Of a stretch of DNA of 64,000 bases, positions 15 through 50,079 are shown in pieces; within the stretch, counting starts at the first letter, position 1; every line of letters begins with the position of its first letter. Below the pieces are notes generated by a model. That model searched no databases. It saw only the letters and a program-made list of their open reading frames with translations, and had not been told where the DNA came from. A program made the position numbers and the translations under genes. Source of the DNA: Williamsia sp. 1138 (GTDB taxonomy: Bacteria > Actinomycetota > Actinomycetes > Mycobacteriales > Mycobacteriaceae); contig NZ_MJEJ02000032.1 of the NCBI RefSeq assembly GCF_002095435.2, positions 1 to 64,000 of the forward strand, read 5' to 3'.

Positions 15-1070
15 TCAAGCGGCGGCTTGTTCGGTCGGTGCGGGGTGCGTGTGGGCGTCGGTGGTGAGTCGTTGGTAGACGGTGCGGATGAGTCGTCGTC
101 GCAGGCACCGTAGGGCTGAAGTTTTGGTGTCGTTGGCGGCGAGGCGGTTGCGGTAGTAGGTGTAGCCGTCGGAGTCTTCGAGGCGGATTTGGGTCAGGGC
201 GATGCGGTGCAGTGCGGTATTGAGCTGTCGGTTGCCGTGTCGGGGTAGTCGCACGCGGCCGGCGCTGTTGCCGGACCAGACGGGGATGGGTGCTGTGCCG
301 GCGTAGCTGGCGTAGGCGTCGGCGGAGCGGAAGCGGGAGATGCCGGCGGTTTCGCCGACGATTTTGCCGGCGGTCAGTTCGGCACAGCCGGGCAACTCGA
401 GCAAGGTCGGCACCAGTTGGCGTACTCGCTTGCCGATCTCGGTGGCGAGCTTGTTGATCCGGGCTGTCAGCGAGATGATGTCGTCGAGTTCCGCGCGGGC
501 GATGTCGGCGAGGAGGCTGGTGTGGTTCGCGAGATGGGTGGCGAGTATTTTTTGGTGCTTGTTCATGCTCAGCGACCGGGGTTTGGGAGCGTAGGCGGGA
601 TTGATCTCATGGACCCGCCACAGCAGTCGGTTGATTGACGCAGTGCGTTGGGCGACAGCGACTTCCCGGTAGTCGACGAGGAGCCGTAACTCGCGGGATT
701 GGGGGTCGGCGCCAGCGGCGGGCAGGTCCGGTTCGCGTAGTACCGCTCGCGCCACGGCCAGGGCGTCGATGGGATCTGACTTGCCGCGGGTGCGAGCGCT
801 GGAGCGGGCTTGGGCCATCAACTTGGTGGGTACGCGCACCGCGGTCTGGCCGGCGCCGAGCAGGTCGCGCTCGAGGCGGGTCGACATCTGCCGGCAGTCC
901 TCGATACCCCACACCAGATCGCCACCGAACTCGGTGAGTGCCCAGTTGATCGCTGTGTGGTGCCCTTCGGTGGTGGCCGCAGAGGTGAGGTGGCCTAGCT
1001 TCTTGCCGACGGAATCGACGGCGACGAATGTGTGAGTGGACTTGTGTACATCGACTCCAACAACAACCAT
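15..1070 (-). CDS. IS110-family transposase (DEDD RuvC-like plus Transposase_20)
   Basis: A 351-residue recombinase that moves the element through an RNA-guided, DEDD-type mechanism known for the IS110 family. The N-terminal RuvC-like domain starts MVVVGVDVHKSTH and supplies the first acidic residue. Further acidic residues lie in WGIEDCRQ and GKSDPIDALAVARAV. The C-terminal Transposase_20 domain contains LLELPGCAELTAGKIVGE, a YAGTAPIPVWSG segment with the conserved Ser region, and the basic RLPRHGNRQLNTALHRIA stretch. The ATG at 1070 was chosen because AGGAGG lies at ideal spacing just upstream; the longer in-frame reading to 1163 runs into the structured non-coding segment. The gene is intact, so the copy may be active. 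Confidence 0.93.
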   Translation of the reverse strand: MVVVGVDVHKSTHTFVAVDSVGKKLGHLTSAATTEGHHTAINWALTEFGGDLVWGIEDCRQMSTRLERDLLGAGQTAVRVPTKLMAQARSSARTRGKSDPIDALAVARAVLREPDLPAAGADPQSRELRLLVDYREVAVAQRTASINRLLWRVHEINPAYAPKPRSLSMNKHQKILATHLANHTSLLADIARAELDDIISLTARINKLATEIGKRVRQLVPTLLELPGCAELTAGKIVGETAGISRFRSADAYASYAGTAPIPVWSGNSAGRVRLPRHGNRQLNTALHRIALTQIRLEDSDGYTYYRNRLAANDTKTSALRCLRRRLIRTVYQRLTTDAHTHPAPTEQAAA

Positions 1071-1140
1071 GGTGGTTGCCTCCTGATTCAGAAACAGGGA
1101 CAGGGACGGTTGGGCCGGCCGGTGGGCAATCCTCAGTTGG

Positions 1141-12991: not shown

Positions 12992-13233
12992 TGTCAATCG
13001 GAATCGCCGCCGCTGAGCTCCGTGAGCTCAACGACGAAGAACTGGTCGAACGTTTGCGTGAGTCGAAGGAAGAGCTGTTCAACCTTCGGTTCCAGATGGC
13101 CACCGGTCAGCTCGACAACAACCGCCGGCTGCGTACCGTGCGTCGCGAAATCGCGCGCGTGTACACCGTCATGCGGGAACGCGAGCTCGGCCTGGCCGCC
13201 GGACCTGAAGCAAAGGACGGTGACGACGCATGA
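12991..13233 (+). CDS. rpmC: 50S ribosomal protein L29
   Basis: An 80-residue two-helix protein beside L23 at the tunnel exit. It carries [59 protein letters not shown]. It is overlapped at both ends by its neighbours (TGATG and ATGA), so translation is coupled. Confidence 0.97.
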
Positions 13234-13523
13234 GTGAGGACCAGAAGGTGACAGAAACGTCCACCACCGAGGAGCGTGCGAGCCGCAAAGAGCGGATCGG
13301 GTACGTCGTCTCGGACAAGATGCAGAAGACCATCGTGGTCGAGCTGGAAGATCGTGTGAAGCACCCGCTTTACGGCAAGATCATCCGCACCACCAGCAAG
13401 GTCAAGGCCCACGACGAGAACGAGACCGCCGGTATCGGCGACCGCGTTCGTCTGATGGAGACCCGCCCGACCAGCGCCACCAAGCGCTGGCGTCTGGTCG
13501 AGGTCCTCGAGAAGGCCAAGTAG
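13230..13523 (+). CDS. rpsQ: 30S ribosomal protein S17
   Basis: A 97-residue 16S rRNA-binding OB-fold protein. Seen are [45 protein letters not shown] and [30 protein letters not shown]. It is the last gene of this ribosomal block and is followed at once by a strong terminator. In many actinobacteria rplN follows after a short interval; here it is about 44.5 kb away. Confidence 0.98.
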
Positions 13524-13659: not shown

Positions 13660-13839
13660 TCAGCGAGTGTCGCCTTCACTGTCCGACTCGCCACGAAGTC
13701 GTAACAGCTTCTGGCGTGCGGTTTCCATGATCTCAAGCGCTTTTTCGTTCTGTTCGAGCTTCTTGGCTAACGCATCGTTCTGAGCCCTTAGACGTTTCAG
13801 TTCTGCGCGTTCCTCTGCGGTGAGTGGTTCATCGCTCAC
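13660..13839 (-). CDS. Small charged coiled-coil protein
   Basis: A 59-residue protein, almost entirely one predicted helix: LTAEERAELKRLRAQNDALAKKLEQNEKALEIMETARQKLLRLRG. Heptad spacing of leucines suggests a coiled coil. The GTG at 13839 was chosen because GGAGG lies at correct spacing before it. It is 37 bases downstream of the dual-ATPase gene on the same strand, so it is probably the last member of that operon. The helix loosely resembles the leucine zipper at the end of IS3 OrfA proteins, but no transposase is nearby. Function is unknown; an adaptor or oligomerisation subunit is possible. Confidence 0.6.
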   Translation of the reverse strand: MSDEPLTAEERAELKRLRAQNDALAKKLEQNEKALEIMETARQKLLRLRGESDSEGDTR

Positions 13840-13876
13840 GTTGACCTCCATCTCGATCGATTTGCTTCGAAAGTTC

Positions 13877-16800
13877 CTATTCCCGGCTAAGGGCCAGGAC
13901 TTCCTCGTCGGAGAGGGGGGAGGCGGGGTGGTAGCTCAGGCACATTGGGGTGTTCACCTTCTGGAACGACGCGCCATCGGGGGCGACGTAGAACTCGCCG
14001 GTTCCGAGGCGCCCGATGTCGTTGATTCGGCTGCCCTTTGCGGAGGCCATCTCGTTCGCAGCGTTGATCTGCACCGGTGTGTTGAGGCGGCCGAAGAATT
14101 GCGTGGAGGCATTGCCGACGATCTTGGCGTCGATGCCTTTGGGTGCTTGGGTGGCGAACACCAGGCCCAGTCCGTACTTCCGCGCTTGAGACGCCAGTGC
14201 AACTGTGCTTCGTGTGCACGGTGTGACTCGGCCCGACGGAACCAGAGTCTGGGCCTCGTCCATGACGAACAACGCGCCGAGCGGGCGATCGCCTGCCGGG
14301 TTCTTCTTGATCCAGGCGAACAAGGCGAGCTCGAGCTGATTCACGAATCCCTGGCGGTTGCCTTCGTCGGGGAGACCGATGAGGCTGATCACCGAGATCC
14401 GGGCGCGCTTGCCGGCCGTAGGCGTGAGCAGGACCGAGGGGTCGACGGGTGTCCCACCACCGCCCAACATCGGGTTGATGATCATCGCGGCCTTGAGATT
14501 CTCGGCCAAGATGCCCGCGAGCTTCTCGGTATCGGTCAGACCACTCATGTCGTCCGTCATCTCCGACAGCAGAGCGACGTACCCGGCGAGTGAGCCGCCG
14601 CCTTGCCGACCGTACAGCGCCATCGAACGCTTGAGAATGGCTTCTTGGAGCGACGCTTTCGTGCCGCTGACCCCGGCATAGGGTTTCAACGCAGACACTG
14701 CTGCGTCGACGGCCAAGTCGAACTCGTCCGGGTTCTCCTGGACGGCGACGAAATCTGGGAGGGGCTGAAAACTCAGCGGGCGACCGCCGCTGAGCCGTGG
14801 CGTCCAGATGACGGTTTCGACGTTTGCGATGTAGTCGGCGGCTTTGGCGGCATCGTCGCCCGTCCATGCCGACGGAGCTTGGGGCCACGCGGTCCCCAAC
14901 CGGGCGAGGTCGTTGTTGGGATCGAGGACGATCGCCGAAACACCCTGCAGGGCGCACTCTTCGATGAGCCGGCGGATCATCACTGTCTTTCCGGAACCCG
15001 ATCCGGCGAAGATGGCCGTGTGTTTGCGGAGGGCCTCGAGTTCGACGGTGGCCTCCCGTCCCGACCGCGCAACACCCAGTCGGATACTCGTTGATGGGGG
15101 AGTCGACGCGGCGACAGGGGAGGACGGTTGCTCGGCATCGATCACCGGGATCTCGGCGGTGGTCTCTGCGGACAACTCGGCCGACGCGGGCGCGGGTGAT
15201 ACCGCAGGTGTGTACGGTTCGGGCGCAGACTCTTCCGTTGGTGAGACCGGCGGCTCGACGACGTCGAGCGGCGCGTCCACCTCGTCGCCGGCTGTGCCCA
15301 GGGCGGCACTCAGGAACTCGATGTCATGAGCGGGTTTGCGCTCCTGGAGCCAGCTGTCCAGACCGCCGGGCATCTTCTTCAGCATCTCGTTCAGAGCACT
15401 GAGTTTCGAGATGTCGTCCGTGGACAGGGACAGTACCTGGCCACCGTTGGCGGTGAACTCGCTGACGATCTGCGCTGTCTTCGGGCCGCTCGGCCAATCG
15501 ATGTTCCGGAGGATGAACAGTTGGCGTCGAGAGACGTTGGCGTCGAGGCCGGCTTCGATTGCGGCATTGCGCAGACGTGATTGCACCGCAACGGCATTGG
15601 GCGATGAGATGGCGCGGAAGGCCCAGTGCTGTTCGTCGTCGATTTCGGAGTCGAGTGTCAGCCGCAGACGCGCATGCAGTCGGAACTGGCCGCCGACCGG
15701 ATCGATCTCGAAAGCGTCGGAGCCAGCTTCGATTGCCCAGGCCCGAAGTCCCGCATTCAGCAGATCGGGGACGAGGTCGTCTTCCTTCTTCGGGTCTACG
15801 ACGGGCGCTGTGATGGCGTTTCGAATGTGCCGCTGGTAGACCTCGTCCAGGTCACCGGCGGGTGCCTCATTGCGGTCAACGATCTTGGGGCGGTGTGGAG
15901 CGTCTACGACAGTCTTCGGCTGATCGACCAGCGATTCCAGCTCAATCACTTCGTCGTTGTCGAGACAGTCGTTGATGTGGCGGTCGATGCGCTTGATCAG
16001 CAGGCGCGCGTTGAGCTCAGATGCCTGAGTGAATGCTTGATCCTTGACCGGCCAGGTGGCGTACGGCGGCGTGAAGTTCGACTTCGCAAGGGCTTTCGAT
16101 AGGCGGCGTTCGACAAGCGCGCGGGCGAAAGCGCCGTCGGGTAGTCCTTCGAGGACGAAGTTCGCTCGGAATCGATCTTGGACTGTGCTGGTCGCCTGAG
16201 ATTCGATGATCGTCCAGATCTTCGGCAGGCAGGAGATCACACAGACTGTGCGCAACAGCACCTCACGGACTGACATCAGACCGTGCGCCAAGAGGTCGAT
16301 GATCGAGTTGGCGTAGGAATCCGTGGCCGAGGCGTCCGTGCTCGAGCGCGATTGCGCAACAAGTGTGTCGATCTGATCGATCGCCAAAACCGACGGCCCG
16401 GTGGCGGCCATGAACTCGGAGATGGCGCGGACGGTCTGGTCGTGAGGCATCGCTCGTGGGGGCAAGTGCCACTCGTCCCGGTCCGCCGACTCGATCTCCT
16501 CGATGTTGTTCTCCAGGTACGCGATACCCAGATCGTTGAGGCGCGAGTTCGGGGCTGCGGTGAGAACGAGAGCGCGGAGGGTGGCGTGGTGGCTACGAAT
16601 GAGCGCGGGGAGGGGCTTGCGCAGCCCGTTGACGAACTCGTCCAGGACTTCCGGAGTGATGGTCGTGTCACCGGAGATCGCGCGCCGCGCACTGCGGGTG
16701 GTGCCGGCAAGGTCAGCCAGTTTCCGCATGACTTCGTGCAGTTGGGTCTTGTCGACCGGTGGTTCGATCTGCCGGTTCAACGAGTCGAGGAGTGAACTGA

Positions 16801-17125
16801 GCAGCGTCCGCCAGAAGTCGCTCGGGTCCAGGAGATCGAGCATGATGAAGTAGCCGTCCTTGGCCTGGACGTATTCGCGCACCTGTCCGAGAAGGTGCGT
16901 CTTGCCCGAACCTGCAGGACCCTGCAGCACTACCCCGAGCGGACTCGGTCCTCGGCTCTCTTGCGCGTCGGCGACAGCACGTTCGATGGCACGCCAGGCT
17001 TTGGAGTGAAGTCCGTTGACGTGAATGTCGTTGTTGGAGACCCATACGTCGTCGCGGGTATGGGCGGAGTTCGAGAAGCCACTGCGAGCTACGGCCAGAG
17101 CTTCGAGCGGGGATGTCGAGGTCAC
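13877..17125 (-). CDS. Dual P-loop ATPase: N-terminal AAA-like module plus C-terminal HerA/VirB4-like module
   Basis: A 1082-residue protein. The first ATPase has a Walker A GPAGSGKTHLL near residue 70 and a Walker B-like VLAIDQIDTL near 245, in the style of ORC/STAND or DptF-type AAA proteins. A variable middle and a Pro/Ala/Glu-rich linker follow. The second ATPase has Walker A IFAGSGSGKTVMIRRLIEE near 707, the LDPNNDLARLG segment typical of HerA/DUF87 proteins, Walker B LFVMDEAQTLV near 953, and a sensor-like LVFATQAPKGIDAKIVGNASTQFFGRLN. HerA/VirB4 ATPases pump or translocate DNA. It starts at GTG 17125, overlapping the winged-helix gene as GTGA. With a nuclease upstream, a role in recognising and destroying foreign DNA is inferred. 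Confidence 0.85.
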   Translation of the reverse strand: MTSTSPLEALAVARSGFSNSAHTRDDVWVSNNDIHVNGLHSKAWRAIERAVADAQESRGPSPLGVVLQGPAGSGKTHLLGQVREYVQAKDGYFIMLDLLDPSDFWRTLLSSLLDSLNRQIEPPVDKTQLHEVMRKLADLAGTTRSARRAISGDTTITPEVLDEFVNGLRKPLPALIRSHHATLRALVLTAAPNSRLNDLGIAYLENNIEEIESADRDEWHLPPRAMPHDQTVRAISEFMAATGPSVLAIDQIDTLVAQSRSSTDASATDSYANSIIDLLAHGLMSVREVLLRTVCVISCLPKIWTIIESQATSTVQDRFRANFVLEGLPDGAFARALVERRLSKALAKSNFTPPYATWPVKDQAFTQASELNARLLIKRIDRHINDCLDNDEVIELESLVDQPKTVVDAPHRPKIVDRNEAPAGDLDEVYQRHIRNAITAPVVDPKKEDDLVPDLLNAGLRAWAIEAGSDAFEIDPVGGQFRLHARLRLTLDSEIDDEQHWAFRAISSPNAVAVQSRLRNAAIEAGLDANVSRRQLFILRNIDWPSGPKTAQIVSEFTANGGQVLSLSTDDISKLSALNEMLKKMPGGLDSWLQERKPAHDIEFLSAALGTAGDEVDAPLDVVEPPVSPTEESAPEPYTPAVSPAPASAELSAETTAEIPVIDAEQPSSPVAASTPPSTSIRLGVARSGREATVELEALRKHTAIFAGSGSGKTVMIRRLIEECALQGVSAIVLDPNNDLARLGTAWPQAPSAWTGDDAAKAADYIANVETVIWTPRLSGGRPLSFQPLPDFVAVQENPDEFDLAVDAAVSALKPYAGVSGTKASLQEAILKRSMALYGRQGGGSLAGYVALLSEMTDDMSGLTDTEKLAGILAENLKAAMIINPMLGGGGTPVDPSVLLTPTAGKRARISVISLIGLPDEGNRQGFVNQLELALFAWIKKNPAGDRPLGALFVMDEAQTLVPSGRVTPCTRSTVALASQARKYGLGLVFATQAPKGIDAKIVGNASTQFFGRLNTPVQINAANEMASAKGSRINDIGRLGTGEFYVAPDGASFQKVNTPMCLSYHPASPLSDEEVLALSRE

Positions 17126-17787
17126 ACGGTCTCCACGTAGATGAGGTGTTTGTTCTGGCCGCCGATCGACACCGCAGCGGCGCGATCTTCCGGGGTCAAC
17201 GACTTCTGGTTCTCTTCTGGGATCAGCGTGATCCCCGGCCGGGTGTAGAGCGATCTCAGAGCGTCGTCGAGAACATCTCGCTCGATGTCCCCGAGGGCCG
17301 GCCGAAGTCGCCGGAGAGATACCCACGCTCCGGGTTTGGCCGCCAGGGATCTGTAGGCCTCGACAATTCGGATGTCAACGGCAGGCTCGAGCTGGGCGGC
17401 GGCGTCGGGGACGGGTTCGTCGACAACCACCGGGTCTTGGGGCGGCGCGAACACGTCAGCCAGACGCAGGTCGCTGGTGTGAAGATGGCGTCCGAGCCCC
17501 GCCAGCACGGTGAACAGCGCTTTGCCCTGCGGGGTGGTTCCGGCCGGCGGCTGCGTTCCGAGGAGTTCGTTGCACCGGGCCCATCCGCGATCGGACAGTG
17601 CGTGCCGGTGGGGTCGCGCGGAGGTGTCGCTCTCGATGAGTCCCAGTTCGTTCAGCTTCTTTCGGGACGGGGTGGCACGGAGTTCGGGCCCACGCTCCTT
17701 GATCTCGGCGTTGGTGAGGCCACGTGCTTCAGCCATCAAGACGAGTAAGACGATCATCTCCGTACCGGTGAGGTCCGAAGTGGTCAC
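17122..17787 (-). CDS. Winged-helix protein of the nuclease/ATPase cassette
   Basis: A 221-residue protein with two likely winged-helix parts. The N-terminal 75 residues (TGTEMIVLLVLMAEARGLTNAEIKERGPELRATPSRKKLNELGLIESDTSARPHRHALSDRGWARCNELL) read like a MarR-type fold. A second one is likely around residues 130-185 (IRIVEAYRSLAAKPGAWVSLRRLRPALGDIERDVLDDALRSLYTRPGITLIPEE). The GTG at 17787 has AAAGGAG upstream and overlaps the nuclease stop; its own stop overlaps the ATPase start. It could regulate the operon or act as the DNA-recognition subunit. No named family was recognised. Confidence 0.75.
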   Translation of the reverse strand: MTTSDLTGTEMIVLLVLMAEARGLTNAEIKERGPELRATPSRKKLNELGLIESDTSARPHRHALSDRGWARCNELLGTQPPAGTTPQGKALFTVLAGLGRHLHTSDLRLADVFAPPQDPVVVDEPVPDAAAQLEPAVDIRIVEAYRSLAAKPGAWVSLRRLRPALGDIERDVLDDALRSLYTRPGITLIPEENQKSLTPEDRAAAVSIGGQNKHLIYVETV

Positions 17788-18848
17788 GGGAGCTCCTTTG
17801 CAGCCAAGCGGTCAAAACGCAGCCTCTCGATTATGTCCGCAACACGGGGGGTGTCGCTCAGTACCTGTTCGTTGGTGAATCGGACGACCGTGTACCCGGC
17901 CAGTTGCAGTGCGACATCGCGTCGGCGGTCGTCCGCGTACTTCGCGGCGGTCCGGTGGTCGGCGCCGTCGATCTCCACTACGAGCGAGGCCTCCGGCCAG
18001 AGGAGATCCGCTCTCACATACGGCGCGAGATCGCCGGTCGGCACTCGCTGGTTCCACCGTCGGCTCCCCGCCCAATGCTGCCGGGCGAGGTGCGATTCGA
18101 GCTTCCCCTCTGCGGTGCTCGATGGATGCGGCCGCCCGGCGAGGGGAGGGAAGGTCAGAGCGGGAAGGGTCCAGGGTTGTTCATCTGCCACCTGGGCATC
18201 GCCGGGTTCGAGGCTCCGGATCGGGTAACGGTCGAGCGGAGACGTGATGTCGTCGAGCAGCCAGACGCCGACGTAGGTTGCCAACCAGTCGCACGCGGTT
18301 GCCAGCTGCTGCTGCTGCGCGGCGGTGGACACAGCGGCAGGGTAGAGGGCGAGTACGACGGCGTCCCGGGCGAAGCTCTCCGAGATCACCCGCACGAGCC
18401 CGGCCATGAGAGTGCCCGAGGTGTACTTCTGCGACAGATCCGACGACACGCCGCTGCCGTGCGCGGCAACGGCATTGGTGGTCAGGTCCATGAGGAACGG
18501 ACGGTAGTGGGGCGACGATTCGGCCATGGTTGCGGCCAGGGAGCGGGCGGCGACCCGGTCGATCGTGCTTCGCCTCGGCGACACCTCTGCGCCCGGGAGC
18601 CAGGCCGGGTAGAGGTCGTAGGCGATGCGTTCGAGGCGGCCGATCAGGTCGTCGATCACCTGGGATGCTCCGCTGATCTGATCCACGCGTGTCAGCAGGA
18701 CAGCAGGTGCGTCATCGGGTAGGTCGTCGAGGGCCAGTGCGATGGCGGCGACGCCGACACCGGTGAGAGAGACCACGCCCGAGGAAGGCAAAGCGGACCA
18801 GTCCATGGGGAAAACGTACTCGTCTGCGATGTCGCGGCAGTTCGTCAT
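17784..18848 (-). CDS. DUF559-type (PD-(D/E)XK-like) nuclease, first gene of the cassette
   Basis: A 354-residue protein. About 250 N-terminal residues are of unknown type. The C-terminal 90 residues form a DUF559/Vsr-like endonuclease fold: [10 protein letters not shown], then [54 protein letters not shown]. The D-x(n)-ExD catalytic pattern is present, with EID near residue 290. Its stop overlaps the winged-helix gene start, and that gene overlaps the ATPase gene, so the three are translationally coupled. The ATG at 18848 has no strong ribosome site; an in-frame ATG at 18806 is an alternative. Nuclease activity is inferred from the fold. Confidence 0.78.
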
Positions 18849-18946
18849 CTGTTCGAATTACAGACCGCTCAGCGGCGGGCACACTAATGTCGGCCAGATC
18901 TGCCTATGGTCGACCCTCCGACTCGACCACCCGAAAGGTTTTCGAC

Positions 18947-19447
18947 ATGAGCGATCCATACGACCCGACGCAGGCCTACCGGCCGGATCTGAACAAAGAC
19001 GGGAGTAGCGGTCAGGACAGCGGCGGATATGACAACGGGGGATACCCGCAGCAGGCATACCCGCCGCCGCCCGCCTACGGCCAGACCTATGATCCCTACG
19101 CCGGTCAGTACCCTGCACCGGGATTTGGCTACGGCCCGCCGAACCAGGGGGTTGGGCACCAGCAGTTCGGTCAGCCGGGCTACCCCCAACAACTTCCGGT
19201 GGCCGGGCAACGCACCAACGGGCTCGCCATCGCCGCGCTTGTGTGCGGATTGCTCCCGTTCTTCTGCGTCACGTCGATCATCGCGATCATCCTGGGGCAC
19301 ATCGGCCTGAGCCAGGTCAAGAACAGTGGCGGGGCCGAGAGCGGTGAGGGTCTTGCTCTGGCCGGACTCATCCTGGGGTACGTATTCGTCGTCGGCTGGG
19401 TCCTCTACTTCTTCATCTCCATCGCCATTGCAGTAGGTAACAGCTGA
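18947..19447 (+). CDS. DUF4190 membrane protein with Gly/Pro/Tyr-rich cytoplasmic tail
   Basis: A 166-residue protein. The first 85 residues are a low-complexity Gly/Pro/Tyr/Gln tail (repeats such as [14 protein letters not shown]). Two hydrophobic helices follow ([33 protein letters not shown] and [28 protein letters not shown]), the DUF4190 pattern found widely in actinobacteria. GAAAGG precedes the ATG at 18947. Function is unknown. A second family member is present at 53137-53643. Confidence 0.88.
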
Positions 19448-19635
19448 TCGTCAGCACGTCGTCTGATCAAACGACCCCCTGAGCGGTAAGATTCATTCAG
19501 GGTCGGGCAGTCCTGTCCGCGGTTGACGCCGCGGGGAGCTACCCGAAGGGCGTTCGATCTCATGACCGACAACCAAGTGCCACAACCGGGATGCCGGTGG
19601 GGCCGCAGTGCATTTGTCTGTGACGTCTCGTCCGG

Positions 19636-20853
19636 GTGGTGGACGCCGTGAGCGTCGTCCGCGCGACCCCGCCCGTTCGCCACGACCTCGGCAACACACG
19701 CCGAGCGCGTCGGTCGGGGGCTGCCCAGACGGCCTCAGACGTACGGTTCGCCGACGCCGACGAGATTCGGCGTTGGGACGAGTTGATCCTACGAAGTCCG
19801 GACGAGGGCAACGTCTATCGCGGAAGCGACAATATCGCCGGCATGGTCGTGGGCGGGGGGACGCCCGTCTACCTGATCGTGGGCGGTTTTGCAGTCATTG
19901 CTTTTCAAGTCCGAGTTCCGGTGTCAGGTCCCCTGTGGGTGCTGATCGGACCGCCGGTTGCCGACGTCCATGACCTGATCGCTGCCGCGCGTGAGGTAGC
20001 AGCATTCGGAGCGCGACACGGGATCACCGCGGTGCGATTACGCACCCAGCTCAGAGCGAACGCAAACGATGAGATGGCGCTTCGCGCAGCAGGGTTGAGA
20101 CGCACCCCGACATGGCTCGACGACAGCACGGTGCTCGTCGACTTGCGAGGCTCTGAACACGATGTGCAGGCCCGGTTCAAGAAGCGCGCGCGGAAGTCGA
20201 TTCGTCGCGCCGCCCGCGAGTTCGTCGTCGTCGATCGCGTGCCGGCGACCGACGACAACTGTCGAGTGCTGTACGAGATGCTCGACGCGACCAGCGGAGG
20301 CAGATTTCACATACCGAGCCTGGCGACGACCACCGCCGTCTTCCAGCGGTACGAGCAGTCCGGTCGCGGCCAATTGTTTCTGGCGCGACATTGCGGCGAA
20401 GTGGTGGTCGGTGCGTTTGTGACGACCTTCGGAAAGACTGCGTTGTACTTCGGGGCGGGTTCGGTGCGCAAGCGGCCGGGTGACCCCACCGAGTGTGGAC
20501 TCGGCGGGAGCCGTGCGGCCTACGCCTTGCAGTGGGAGATCATGCGTTGGGCCCGTGAACAGGGGTGCGAGTGGTACGACCTCGACGGCACGCCGTCGTC
20601 GGCGACCATCACCGACGAGTCCCACCAGCGCCACGGCGTGGGCCAGTTCAAGACCGCGTTCAGCGAAGAGATCACCGACTACCTCGGTGCCTACCAAATC
20701 GACATCCGGCCGGGACGGGCGTGGACGACGCGACAACTCGAGATCTGCGCGGGGCGTGTCGATGAGTCACCGTTGTTGAACCGTCTGCGCCGGCGGCCGG
20801 TGCGGCCGAACCCGGATTATGTGTGGCTCCACCCGAGGCGTCGGAGCCGATAG
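19636..20853 (+). CDS. FemAB-like GNAT peptidyltransferase
   Basis: A 405-residue protein of the FemABX group, whose known members add amino acids from aminoacyl-tRNA to lipid-linked peptidoglycan precursors. The double-GNAT layout is visible: FARKSIRRAAREF-like basic segment (KKRARKSIRRAAREFVVVDRV), then GQLFLARHCGEVVVGAFVTTFGKTALYFGAGSVRK and AAYALQWEIMRWAREQGCEWYDLDG, ending with GVGQFKTAFSEEITDYLGAYQIDI, close to the family GLYRFKKGFG motif. The start is GTG at 19636, with a GTG at 19648 as an alternative. Many actinobacterial members have unknown acceptors, so a direct role in cross-bridge formation is not certain. Confidence 0.82.
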   Translation: MVDAVSVVRATPPVRHDLGNTRRARRSGAAQTASDVRFADADEIRRWDELILRSPDEGNVYRGSDNIAGMVVGGGTPVYLIVGGFAVIAFQVRVPVSGPLWVLIGPPVADVHDLIAAAREVAAFGARHGITAVRLRTQLRANANDEMALRAAGLRRTPTWLDDSTVLVDLRGSEHDVQARFKKRARKSIRRAAREFVVVDRVPATDDNCRVLYEMLDATSGGRFHIPSLATTTAVFQRYEQSGRGQLFLARHCGEVVVGAFVTTFGKTALYFGAGSVRKRPGDPTECGLGGSRAAYALQWEIMRWAREQGCEWYDLDGTPSSATITDESHQRHGVGQFKTAFSEEITDYLGAYQIDIRPGRAWTTRQLEICAGRVDESPLLNRLRRRPVRPNPDYVWLHPRRRSR

Positions 20854-20859
20854 GTGCGA

Positions 20860-21723
20860 TCAGTTGGCGCCGATGACGAGCGGGAGCAGCGTCCACGGAC
20901 GCTCGGTGAGCCAGTCGATCGCGGCCTTGAGGTCGGTGAGATCGTCACTGTCGTAGTCGGAGTCGAGTAGCGGATCGTCAGATTCCACAGGTGCGTCGTA
21001 TGTATCGGCGTTCGGTGAGGGTTCGTCGCAGACGATCATGGTGTTGTTCGCGTCGCCCCACGCCTGTTCGAACTCGTCGAGGGGGACCTCCATGCGGTCG
21101 CCGTCCGGGTGCCCCGGGTCGCTGAGATAGACGACGCCCTTCTCGTAGTCGATCTCGCTGATGACCACGCAATGGTCACCGCCCTGATCGCGTCCGGCGG
21201 ACTCGTCCTTCGCTTCCTGCTCAGGGTCCCAATACTCGCCGGAGTCGACGTACAGCATCACCCCGCGACCCTCGTCGAGTGCGACGGAGAGGTCGTCCAT
21301 GTCGCCTGTTTCGACGGTCGCCGGAATTCCGTTCTGTTCCAGTAGGTCTGCGGCCGCGTAGATCGACATCCCGTTGTTGATCTCACCGTCGACGAAGTAT
21401 CCGTTCTCCTGCGACAGTTCGACGAACGCGTCTTCACTCTGGATGTCCTCGCCGGTGTACTCCGCGACGATCTGCGCGACACTCGCCGGAACGCAGGTGC
21501 CGTTCTCCGCCTGCAGGAACCAGTGGTCGGAGTATTCGTCGGAGTCGCCGGCGCTGTGACCGGATTCGGGCTCGTCCGACGAGTCGTCGGTGACGGGATC
21601 GTCGAGCGAGATGTCGAGGTCCGACCAGCCGATCTGAGCCGTGTTCTCCTGCTCCTCGGCCGGGCCGGTGTCGTCCGGGATCGATATCACGTCGTGCGAG
21701 TCGAACTCGGCTCCGGCATCCAT
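20860..21723 (-). CDS. Highly acidic C39-like (papain-fold) cysteine peptidase
   Basis: A 287-residue protein with very many Asp and Glu residues, notably an acidic N-terminal stretch (SDLDISLDDPVTDDSSDEPE). A C39-type triad can be placed: Cys in ENGTCVPASVAQIVAEYTG, His in GGDHCVVISEID, Asp in VVYLSDPGHPDGD. Families with this fold cleave double-Gly leaders or other peptides. No signal peptide or membrane helix is seen. The ATG at 21723 has AGAAGGA upstream; the longer reading lacks support. It faces the FemAB-like gene tail to tail and is divergent from the small secreted protein gene. The substrate is unknown. Confidence 0.7.
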   Translation of the reverse strand: MDAGAEFDSHDVISIPDDTGPAEEQENTAQIGWSDLDISLDDPVTDDSSDEPESGHSAGDSDEYSDHWFLQAENGTCVPASVAQIVAEYTGEDIQSEDAFVELSQENGYFVDGEINNGMSIYAAADLLEQNGIPATVETGDMDDLSVALDEGRGVMLYVDSGEYWDPEQEAKDESAGRDQGGDHCVVISEIDYEKGVVYLSDPGHPDGDRMEVPLDEFEQAWGDANNTMIVCDEPSPNADTYDAPVESDDPLLDSDYDSDDLTDLKAAIDWLTERPWTLLPLVIGAN

Positions 21724-21911
21724 GGTCGTGTTCCTTCTGCAGTGTGCGGCTTGGTGTCGATGAGAGTCGCGAGCGGGCACGAATGTTCCCGCACTACGTG
21801 CGGTCGTTGACAGCAACTTCACAGGCTGACCATGGATGCCGGTAAGTTTCGATCCCTATCGTTGAACGCAGTCGGTTGAGGTGTCGCCGATGTCAACGAA
21901 GGAGTGGGCAC

Positions 21912-22193
21912 ATGGAGGTCAGGAAGGCCATCTCAGCGGCCGCCGTCACCGGTGGAATCAGCCTGGCGGCGTTGGGAATCGGGACCGGTACGGCGACGGC
22001 GAACGCAGCTGTTGCGCCTGAGGGAACAGCTGTCGGCCAGACGTCGCAGGTTGTTCCTGCGCTCGGCGCGGTGAAGCGGCCTGATCTCGAGACGTTCGAC
22101 TACCGTGGCCAATCGGTGACACCGGTCTTCGACGATCGCAAACAGGGGTGGGGATTCTGGTTCTTCGGACTCTGGGTACCCGTGGTGCTCTGA
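21912..22193 (+). CDS. Small secreted protein
   Basis: A 93-residue protein with a clear signal peptide (MEVRKAISAAAVTGGISLAALGIGTGTATANAA, cleaved after ANA). The mature part is about 60 residues and ends in an aromatic-hydrophobic tail, KQGWGFWFFGLWVPVVL. AAGGAG lies at good spacing before the ATG at 21912. It is divergent from the C39-like peptidase gene, with about 190 bases between them. No known family was recognised. Confidence 0.75.
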   Translation: MEVRKAISAAAVTGGISLAALGIGTGTATANAAVAPEGTAVGQTSQVVPALGAVKRPDLETFDYRGQSVTPVFDDRKQGWGFWFFGLWVPVVL

Positions 22194-22274
22194 CACTGGA
22201 CGCCCGCCATGGATCGTTCGACACCACTTCGGGCCCCGGATGGGCACGCCGAGGGCACTGCTCCCTCGGCGACC

Positions 22275-23066
22275 TCAGGCGGGGACGGATGTGGTGGACA
22301 CGCTCTGCTGTGTCAGTACCAACGGTTCGCCATCGGTGATGGCGATGGTGTGTTCGCTGTGAGCTGTTCGGGATCCGTCGGCAGAGCGGATGGTCCACCC
22401 GTCGTCGTCATAGACGATCCTGTCGGTGGTTCGGGCCAGCCAGGGCTCGAGGGCGAGGGTCAAACCTGGTTTGAGTTTGAGGCCTCGTCCCGCGCGTCCG
22501 GTGTTGGGCACGTGCGGATCTTCGTGCATGGTGCGGCCCAGCCCGTGCCCACCGAACTCGGTGTTGACGGGGTACCCGTAATCGGCAGCCACCGCGCCGA
22601 TGGCCGCGGAGATGTCGCCCAGGCGGTTGCCGGCCCTCGCGGCCGAGATTCCAGCGACCAACGCACGTTCGGTGGCCTCGATGAGGCGTTCGTCCTCGGG
22701 GCGCGGGGTGCCGACGATGATGCTGCGCGCGGAGTCGGCAACCCACCCATTGATCGACACCGCGATGTCCATCGTCAGCAGGTCGGAATCGCGAAGGACG
22801 TAATCATGCGGAAGTCCGTGCAGCACTGCGTCGTTCACCGACAGGCAGATGACGTTTCGGAACGGGCCTCGCCCGAACGAGGGGGAGTAGTCCCAGTAGC
22901 ACGACTGCGCGCCGCGATCGTCGATCAACCGGCGGGCGCGGTGCTCGAGGTCCAGTAAGTTGACCCCGGGCTCGGCTCGGTGCGTGAGATCGTCGAGCAG
23001 GTCGGCAATGAATGCGCCGGTGACCCGCATCTTTTCGATCTCTGTGGGCGTTTTCAATTCGAGCAC
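22275..23066 (-). CDS. map: Type I methionine aminopeptidase (stand-alone copy)
   Basis: A 263-residue metallopeptidase removing N-terminal Met from nascent proteins. Metal ligands are seen in order: Asp in TMDIAVSINGW, Asp in VADSARSIIVG, His in GGHGLGRTMHEDP, Glu in LALEPWL and Glu in AHSEHTIAI. The GTG start at 23066 has GGGAG upstream. Actinobacteria often have two such genes, one of them near secY-adk; this copy stands alone and is preceded by a pair of palindromic repeats, so it may be separately controlled. Confidence 0.92.
   Translation of the reverse strand: MLELKTPTEIEKMRVTGAFIADLLDDLTHRAEPGVNLLDLEHRARRLIDDRGAQSCYWDYSPSFGRGPFRNVICLSVNDAVLHGLPHDYVLRDSDLLTMDIAVSINGWVADSARSIIVGTPRPEDERLIEATERALVAGISAARAGNRLGDISAAIGAVAADYGYPVNTEFGGHGLGRTMHEDPHVPNTGRAGRGLKLKPGLTLALEPWLARTTDRIVYDDDGWTIRSADGSRTAHSEHTIAITDGEPLVLTQQSVSTTSVPA

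Positions 23067-35969: not shown

Positions 35970-35989
<20 letters not shown>
35729..35989 (-). CDS. MbtH-like protein
   Basis: An 86-residue chaperone that binds NRPS adenylation domains and is often needed for their activity. The family pattern is unmistakable: MNPFDDERGTFRVLVNHEGQHSLWPDFAPVPGGWTSQHGPSGREDCLQYVEDNWRDIAPTSL, with all conserved tryptophans. Either of two adjacent ATG codons (35989 or 35986) may be used; GGGAGAGGA lies just upstream. It overlaps the end of the NRPS gene by about 20 bases and the start of the ABC ATPase gene. Confidence 0.96.
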
Positions 35990-49823
<13,834 letters not shown>

Positions 49824-50079
49824 AACGCCCCTCCCGTGGTTGTCGTTGTGCAGTCGGTCTGTATCTCGGTAGTCGTTCGGGCTGAAGGCAACAGCGGATG
49901 GGTTATCCGTGACATTAAAGATCAGATGACCGTACTTAAATGCGCACAGGGGTTTCATGCTGCATACAGAGATCGGTGATGATCCAGATTTCGTTACCCC
50001 GCACAGCGGGGGCCTCAAACCGTAAGTCGACTTCGGTGGAAGTTTGCCTGGCTAAGCGCGTTACAGGAATTGCGGGCTA
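49824..50079 (-). promoter_or_regulatory. Leader/promoter region of the NRPS operon
   Basis: These 256 bases between the TetR gene and the NRPS start hold no gene. A small hairpin with a CCCCGC stem is visible around 49995-50011, and AAGTCGACTT near 50025 is a 10-bp palindrome. Either could be regulatory; neither is clearly the TetR operator. GGGAGGGG at the start-proximal end is the ribosome site. Confidence 0.35.

Follow-up and report, generated by a model that had tools for sequence, protein, structure and literature searches.

A three-gene operon beside the ribosomal genes of Williamsia sp. 1138: a candidate variant of the predicted HerA/FtsK capture class

What does an operon do that joins a nuclease-like protein, a winged helix-turn-helix (wHTH) protein and a double ATPase, and that lies against the ribosomal protein genes? 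The question is raised by a stretch of 64,000 nucleotides of Williamsia sp. 1138 (contig NZ_MJEJ02000032.1, positions 1 to 64,000; hereafter the window), in which an initial annotation had proposed an undescribed defence cassette at 13,660 to 18,848. HerA-type pumps recur in bacterial immunity, and how they choose foreign DNA is an open question. We consider an accessory anti-invader role of the HerA/FtsK capture type fairly probable for this operon. Of the new facts, those that weigh most are its constant wHTH-ATPase core, its variable first gene, the divergent versions found at the ribosomal site and a domain that recurs in proteins of plasmids and a phage; what speaks most strongly against this reading is the metabolic neighbourhood of the relatives, the retention of the operon across some genera and the existence of core-only forms. 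A loader-type AAA+/HerA pump in one chain, with a constant wHTH protein and a variable effector, would make a small and tractable model.

Components of the operon

The nuclease, wHTH and ATPase genes follow one another on the minus strand with GTGA overlaps, as in a translationally coupled operon. Of 79 wHTH genes called in relatives of the operon, 40 overlap the ATPase gene by 4 bases and 24 by 1 base, while 38 overlap the preceding gene by 4 bases and 12 by 1 base. Because these overlaps recur across relatives, the coupling is not due to chance, and the three co-oriented genes of the initial annotation stand. Its fourth gene, encoding a coiled-coil peptide (Table 1), does not: a tblastn search confined to the 90 fetched loci, rather than the genome collections, found no close relatives outside L004 and L071, a single strain to judge by the coordinates, and we rejected the peptide as an operon component.

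The ATPase carries two predicted motors. Pfam places AAA_16 at residues 54-170 (E 5.1e-11) and DUF87/HerA (PF01935) at residues 687-744 (E 2.6e-9). The profile of the protein matches HerA 4d2i in the PDB (E 2.3e-10), and the best Foldseek match of its structural model (predicted local distance difference test, pLDDT, 81) is the HerA-NurA complex 9x1m (E 1.7e-13). AAA_16 is present in 29 of 31 ATPase members, and the Walker pairs of both modules are conserved, the Walker A of HerA deviating in one of 97 ATPase rows. Pfam, the model and these pairs thus bear out the two complete P-loop modules that had been read in the 1082-residue chain. Residues R318 and R374 resemble what we take to be the arginine-finger and sensor-2 residues of AAA+ proteins. 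The whole chain is 92-93% identical to the ATPase of W. limnetica.

Between the motors, residues 448-584 run in the model as helix, three strands, helix, strand, helix, strand, helix, which is the order of a restriction endonuclease (REase) fold. We saw no conserved acidic-lysine pair in these residues; by sequence, the best PDB match of the domain has an E of 0.04 and no Pfam match is convincing. The predicted secondary structure suggests an inactive-REase-like domain. No wHTH follows it in the modelled chain.

The C terminus of the first gene product had been called nuclease-like, and the evidence agrees. Indeed, DUF559 (PF04480) matches the 354-aa protein with an E of 2.1e-12, and its AlphaFold2 model (mean pLDDT 87) is matched by Foldseek to the endonuclease-like 3hrl (TMt 0.82) and to the homing endonuclease I-Bth0305I (3r3p, TMt 0.72), both with prob 1.00 and a whole-chain E of 0.066; the family profile reaches 3hrl at E 8.1e-14. 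Eleven residues (S244, E247, N266, D281, E292, D294, H298, D307, R310, D311 and R323) are invariant in 72 of 72 rows. By its predicted fold and these residues, this C terminus is predicted to be an active REase-fold nuclease of the Vsr-like kind. The N terminus contains, in the model, five strands with helices after the second, and Walker A is absent; the inactive STAND (iSTAND) domain of BrxB has a comparable strand/helix order (PMC12839542). From this order we infer an iSTAND-like domain, an inference because Foldseek support is weak: the whole-protein matches to ABC-type proteins (E 0.01-0.1, TM about 0.2) were rejected as a basis for naming it. Conservation is 0.31 in this N terminus versus 0.48 in the nuclease domain and 0.63 in HerA, and only the linkers and the middle of the wHTH protein fall lower.

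The wHTH protein is a DNA-binding candidate with an N-terminal winged helix. Its N-terminal half matches the RosR-type wHTH 6ez1 weakly (E 4e-4), and spurious calmodulin matches appear in the same list. The double winged helix originally described is thus retained, weakly, for this half; the C-terminal half looks like a winged helix by eye and is a separate conserved domain.

Table 1. Features of the operon, its products and its flanks. Nucleotide positions are those of the window unless another record is named.
Feature	Position	Strand	Description
Nuclease gene	18848-17784	-	354 aa; first gene, exchangeable module
Alpha/beta domain of nuclease protein	residues about 16-212		N-terminal; putative degenerate P-loop/STAND-like, no Walker A
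Vsr-like DUF559 endonuclease domain	residues about 238-345 of nuclease protein		C-terminal
wHTH gene	17787-17122	-	221 aa; core gene 1
wHTH C-terminal domain	17131..17433	-	residues 119-219; recurs in helicases and HTH proteins of plasmids and in the tape measure protein of a phage
ATPase gene	17125-13877	-	1082 aa, GTG start; core gene 2
AAA+ module	ATPase residues about 41-400		Walker A around K75, Walker B around D250, R318, R374
Alpha/beta domain of ATPase	ATPase residues about 441-590		REase-like element order; no catalytic residues seen
Disordered linker	ATPase residues 615-676
HerA module	ATPase residues about 680-1082		K713, D956-E957, R982, Q993
Coiled-coil peptide gene	13851-13660	-	63 aa; not an operon member
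rpsQ (S17)	13230..13523	+	last gene of the S10 operon; convergent with the operon, fixed flank, not a component
C39-like peptidase gene	20860..21822	-	other edge of the empty site in G008; not a component
Domain in Mollymur tape measure gene	NC_070948.1 19192-19431		L135

Relation to HerA systems in print

Which kind of system do these domains make? The HerA/FtsK capture class of Rakesh, Aravind and Krishnan (2024) brings together HerA/FtsK, an Orc/CDC6 AAA+ module, a wHTH and two REases, one active and the other inactive, encoded as a single polypeptide or as several; the inactive REase lies between the AAA+ core and a C-terminal wHTH. Such systems are proposed to localise to invader DNA, pump it and cut it (PMC10853773). 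The theme was extended to BREX-related capture (PMC12839542). In the portions of both papers used here, the treatment of the capture class is computational, and the class stands as predicted in print. The Williamsia operon has in common with it an AAA+ module, HerA, a REase-fold nuclease predicted to be active and a wHTH (PMC10853773). HerA, the REase-fold nuclease and, weakly and in its first half, the wHTH are matched features; the Orc/CDC6 assignment, beyond AAA_16, and the inactive-REase reading of the domain after the AAA+ module are putative. The operon differs in that AAA+, alpha/beta domain and HerA are fused in one chain with the wHTH as a separate gene, in its variable effector slot, and in its nuclease, DUF559/Vsr here and AbiJ-type or a second family in the class as described in that source (PMC10853773). 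We therefore rate the operon as a variant of the predicted class, and figure 7 or the supplement of PMC10853773 may even show it. To that extent the cassette was not undescribed, since a class with these kinds of domains had been predicted. That no named system corresponds to it does hold: we found no specific fit in PADLOC-DB, NCBIfam or Pfam, and no paper joining DUF559 with HerA and anti-phage activity, or DUF559 with DUF87, in a literature search whose scope lay outside figures and supplements.

In such a system, the wHTH protein and the AAA+ (Orc/CDC6-like) module would load the ATPase protein onto DNA, and the HerA modules would form a ring pumping double-stranded DNA. Once the system engages invading DNA, the Vsr-like nuclease would be recruited, bound through its variable iSTAND-like domain (a degenerate P-loop), and would cut that DNA; in other lineages, a STAND-like NTPase or a protein of 288-349 aa would fill the effector slot. 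Because the operon has no modification gene, the cue separating self from non-self would not be methylation but, for instance, the state of DNA that is being transferred, replicated or packaged. None is annotated either in the 27 kb around the Tsukamurella copy; in L035, a small methyltransferase-like gene follows the operon. Of the restriction-like system with fused ATPases first proposed, the nuclease, the wHTH and the fused AAA+/HerA chain are thus found; a cognate modification gene is absent from the operon.

The titles of the structures matched by Foldseek describe HerA-type ATPases that act with effectors in anti-phage complexes. SIR2-HerA and DUF4297-HerA likewise pair a HerA ATPase with an effector, and their structures match this HerA module; here, however, the partner is a Vsr-like nuclease, and an AAA+ module and a wHTH gene are added. 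The models NF042943 and NF042944 give 20.7 and 17.4 bits for cut-offs of 800 and 850, and no SIR2 or DUF4297 partner was matched in the four window proteins (Pfam, PADLOC, NCBIfam). DndFGH/DptFGH have in common the three-gene operon of P-loop, wHTH and HerA-type proteins with a REase domain (PMC10853773), whereas here the AAA+ and HerA parts lie in one chain; DptF, DptG and DptH models are not among the matches listed at E<=1 (PADLOC, NCBIfam). BREX-related capture (BRC) has HerA, an Orc/Cdc6-like ATPase and a wHTH in common with the operon, and BrxB offers a parallel to the first gene of the operon, its inactive STAND being coupled to an effector nuclease (PMC12839542); models of PglZ, DUF4007, DUF6079 and TGT have no match in the three operon proteins. 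Membership of MADS was considered and rejected: the match to mad8 (PDLC04140, E 7.8e-23) comes from an unspecific model, with 127 matching places in the genome that the window belongs to (best E 7.8e-36) and matches in 14 of 14 control genomes, and the other three window proteins have no mad match. In flanking genes of relatives, mad2 occurs in 2 and mad6 in 1 of 136.

HerA-NurA also joins a HerA motor to a nuclease, and it is this complex that gives the best Foldseek match. Could the operon then serve genome maintenance? As an analogue of HerA-NurA, its HerA would pump broken or stalled DNA and its Vsr-like nuclease would resect it, in an accessory locus kept by some genera. We regard this as rather unlikely. 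The operon differs from HerA-NurA in its AAA+ and wHTH parts and its patchy distribution; its nuclease fold is Vsr-like, not that of NurA, and, as seen below, its first gene can be replaced by a STAND-like NTPase.

A constant core, a variable first gene and the ribosomal site

We collected 79 loci, 76 from a scan of the GTDB collection and three from plasmid-collection records, selected by the ATPase or its remains. The wHTH gene is found in 78 of them and the nuclease gene in 70; L087 is the decayed copy. Most hosts are actinobacteria; Desulfobacterium, Paludisphaera and Methylobacterium stand outside that group. One locus titled Kitasatospora arboriphila (L017) carries an operon and S10 genes nearly identical to those of Williamsia muralis (L016); either the title or the assembly is probably in error.

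In a sample of 251 genomes of the family, the ATPase is matched (E<=1e-3) in 95, of which 67 have it at full length, two split (G215 and G230) and one decayed (G004), the rest being weak and partial. The wHTH profile finds 70 genomes, namely the 67 and the two split cases plus one weak partial match (G109), and none in the decayed G004, so that a wHTH gene accompanies the full or split ATPase gene in 69 of 69 genomes. At E<=1e-15, the nuclease profile finds 92 of the 251, and its 53 whole-protein matches all fall within these 69. In a sample of the phylum, the ATPase middle domain occurs in 6 of 346 genomes, 5 of them from the window's family. These counts indicate that the wHTH-ATPase core goes together and that the whole is sparse. 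A housekeeping locus would be expected in all relatives, and this one is in 69 of 251 and 6 of 346; its accessory character, as first supposed, is supported by this patchiness and by the empty site and the decay described below. The phylum count also argues against a maintenance function.

The nuclease is less constant than the cassette first described implied: it is present in the window and in 53 of the 69 family genomes. In the remaining 16, one (G230) is cut by the contig end and the loci of the other 15 were fetched. Four of these 15 (L113, L114, L115 and L117) encode, 22-28 bp before the wHTH gene, related proteins of 288-349 aa without a Pfam match; this family is 29-88% identical and all from genus g22. 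Among the collected loci, six (L039, L054, L055, L057, L060 and L075) have, directly before the wHTH gene, a protein of 572-743 aa with a GxSSxGKT P-loop, and they form one clade of the tree (98, starred) that spans two families. The tree is a quick LG+G4 one with long branches flagged, used only for this clade and for the Rhodococcus split. We call these proteins STAND-like from their P-loop and repeats, Pfam giving a weak helix-turn-helix (HTH) in one of the two scanned. A common origin with the nuclease proteins was rejected, as hhalign finds nothing (probability 0.2%). Paractinoplanes aksuensis has two versions of the operon (L060 and L090), one with the STAND-like gene and the other with the nuclease.

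The other eleven of the 15 genomes have no recognised effector beside the core, which raises the possibility that wHTH and AAA+/HerA suffice for function, by blocking or extruding incoming DNA for instance, with the first gene as an optional addition or a backup effector. This proposal is compatible with an anti-invader role, and we hold it as a tentative one. The invariable pairing of the two core genes speaks for it, as does the state of the eleven core-only systems, where the HerA Walker A is identical in 11 of 11 and the GKT of the first Walker A is kept in 11 of 11. However, the nuclease is kept in most of the 69 family genomes, its active site is identical in 72 of 72 rows, and in some core-only loci (L119, L121) an unrecognised gene lies upstream in the same direction, a possible effector. 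Core-only forms thus provide a natural experiment on motor action in the absence of a nuclease.

Where does this operon reside? The split ribosomal locus noted initially is real: rpsQ adjoins the operon, and a motif search finds no rplN within the window. In 31 of the 79 loci rpsQ is within reach, and in two more rplN, which places 33 of 79 at the gap between the S10 and spc operons. The gap is also used in Rhodococcus and Tsukamurella records, and one Gordonia and one W. maris locus adjoin rplN. A cassette at such a gap would escape searches based on defence islands.

Seven of nine Williamsia genomes have the operon intact, one has it decayed and one lacks it. The empty site, in G008, reads rpsQ, about 150 bp, then the C39-peptidase gene, beyond which lie relatives of window genes 23242, 24333, 25116, 25808, 27529 and 31289; over the compared 17.5 kb, nothing matches the operon or window frames 18887, 19636, 22209 and 29105, and the ATPase has no match anywhere in the G008 genome. 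The ATPase gene of G004 is interrupted by stops and frameshifts, and its nuclease and wHTH genes were not found. The locus is thus dispensable, being empty in one genome and decayed in the other, and such absence and decay among congeners again disfavours maintenance. Decay, together with a stop codon in one wHTH gene of a tandem copy (below), would also suit an accessory locus without much function, hitch-hiking beside ribosomal genes. We find this hardly credible: the motifs are kept, the ratio of nonsynonymous to synonymous substitution (dN/dS) is 0.04-0.38 in 17 of 17 gene pairs, and in 46 of the 79 loci no rpsQ or rplN lies within reach.

In Rhodococcus, the ribosomal site is home to at least three operon lineages. 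Between the hosts of lineages A and B, identity is 96.1-98.6% for ribosomal proteins, versus 53-55% for the ATPase, 42-46% for the wHTH protein and 30-35% for the nuclease; this ribosomal range includes L038, a type-A host, and the closest A-B pairs without its extra copy stand at 97.1-97.3%. Between lineage A and A2 hosts, ribosomal identity is 93-100% and ATPase identity 80-86%. Among the 86 pairs with ribosomal identity >=97%, the ATPase is below 60% in 13, of which 10 involve the extra copy of L038. This locus (the same contig as L125) holds two divergent core versions in tandem, the second without a nuclease gene, with a TerD-AIM24 gene between the second operon copy and rpsQ; one of the tandem wHTH genes carries the stop codon mentioned above, and a third copy lies elsewhere in its genome (G241). 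Divergent versions at one site suggest that species exchange the cassette, for which the conserved ribosomal flanks may offer sites of recombination, and versions only 53% identical in such close hosts are not what a maintenance gene would lead one to expect. An old tandem pair followed by differential loss also fits, and the tandem in L038 counts on its side and against the reading adopted here. We tentatively favour exchange over duplication and loss because another Rhodococcus (L032) holds a further divergent version at the ribosomal site, with an ATPase 61-62% identical to lineage A.

A domain in common with mobile elements, and the neighbourhood

The C-terminal domain of the wHTH protein recurs outside the operon. 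In the family sample it does so in six genomes, five of one genus and all operon carriers, whose kinship may account for the co-occurrence. In L132, the domain (43% identity) lies inside a 2316-aa SNF2/Helicase_C protein that adjoins a TraG/TraD-type coupling protein. It occurs in 14 of 72,556 records of the plasmid collection, two of which are the operon itself; annotations of the plasmid carriers include helicase, SNF2-related and helix-turn-helix proteins, and on plasmid pA21d2 of Rhodococcus fascians a domain-bearing "helicase" has a TraM-recognition protein and a MobF relaxase in its vicinity. MOB-suite classes all 14 records as non-mobilizable. Phage records yield a single match, in the tape measure protein of the Gordonia phage Mollymur (40%, E 1e-10; one phage in two records), and an alignment of six sequences has a common motif around LIPEENQKTLT. 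A 145-kb plasmid of Thermobispora bispora (NZ_CP039125.1) has four places with the domain.

Polyvalent proteins with SWI2/SNF2 modules are, in the part of the source used, proposed to enter cells alongside invading DNA (PMC5512222). As a hypothesis, the domain could be a decoy, or could recognise the same target on both sides; equally open is a common DNA-binding module without meaning in conflict. Its recurrence in mobile elements speaks for the anti-invader reading, and the decoy or common-target hypothesis becomes directly testable because the domain is present both in the helicase of a conjugative plasmid and in the tape measure protein of a phage. That the operon belongs to an unnamed actinobacterial immune family, with a two-gene motor core, an open effector slot, cassette exchange at the fixed ribosomal site and decoy copies of its DNA-binding domain, borne by conjugative plasmids and a phage within large proteins that may accompany their DNA into the cell, is a more doubtful proposition, which we advance as speculation.

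CedD, TrwB and FtsK are HerA-like ATPases that pump DNA in transfer or segregation. The domain in common with conjugative-plasmid helicases, and a Pfam match of the ATPase to TrwB_AAD_bind (25.9 bits for a cut-off of 20.5, across 39 residues around Walker A), point towards a module of that kind; the NCBIfam model of CedD reaches 30 bits for a cut-off of 600. This is improbable in our view: the operon includes a nuclease and has no relaxase, pilus or membrane gene, and none is conserved among the listed neighbour clusters and families, most clusters being unnamed. Furthermore, the ATPase has no match in phage records, and the five plasmid records that match it include two that look like chromosome. 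The latter are L091 (Tsukamurella plasmid 22, with ribosomal protein genes) and L092 (Nonomuraea "plasmid I", 11.85 Mb). A viral origin was likewise rejected, with no match in phage records and four HerA-region matches in viral contigs.

Several observations weigh against an anti-invader function. Ribosomal and ATPase identities correlate overall (Spearman 0.84), from which inheritance within genera is the rule. The dN/dS values given above show no sign of positive selection. The operon is near-universal in some genera, such as Williamsia and genus g30 (15 of perhaps 16, a total guessed from the sampling order), and such retention is unusual for defence genes. The eleven core-only genomes belong here too. 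Finally, the neighbourhood of relatives shows no clear sign of a defence island. We scanned with PADLOC 136 of 220 flanking genes from 16 of 20 loci (L030, L051, L073, L082 and some single genes excluded), a set that includes L036 and L066, which adjoin ribosomal genes. At E<=1e-10, matches came from 66 models, and among the 25 listed none reaches more than two genes; DpdE/ZorD, mad2, mad6, PD-T4-6 and PDC-M60C are listed. Twenty flanking genes scanned singly gave two matches, an SNF2 protein in L020 and a weak CARF in L042. The Pfam families of the flanks (best 25 of 129) are mostly metabolic, and no transposase or integrase is listed among them. No clear enrichment of defence genes thus appears beside relatives in these 136 genes, a set that lacks a random-locus control; this counts against the enrichment anticipated by the initial annotation. 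The generic retention, the purifying selection and this neighbourhood would all suit genome maintenance; the anti-invader reading nevertheless remains the one we prefer.

The SNF2 protein of L020 (18814-22062, 1082 aa) is DpdE/ZorD-like (E 2e-230) and lies about 6 kb downstream of the operon, and L030 has a gene for 1085 aa (19063-22320) at the corresponding position. In the window, the genes at 18887-21822 encode DUF4190, FemAB and C39-type proteins. Downstream of rpsQ, a minus-strand open frame of 4682 aa (35970-50018) has the size of a non-ribosomal peptide synthetase.

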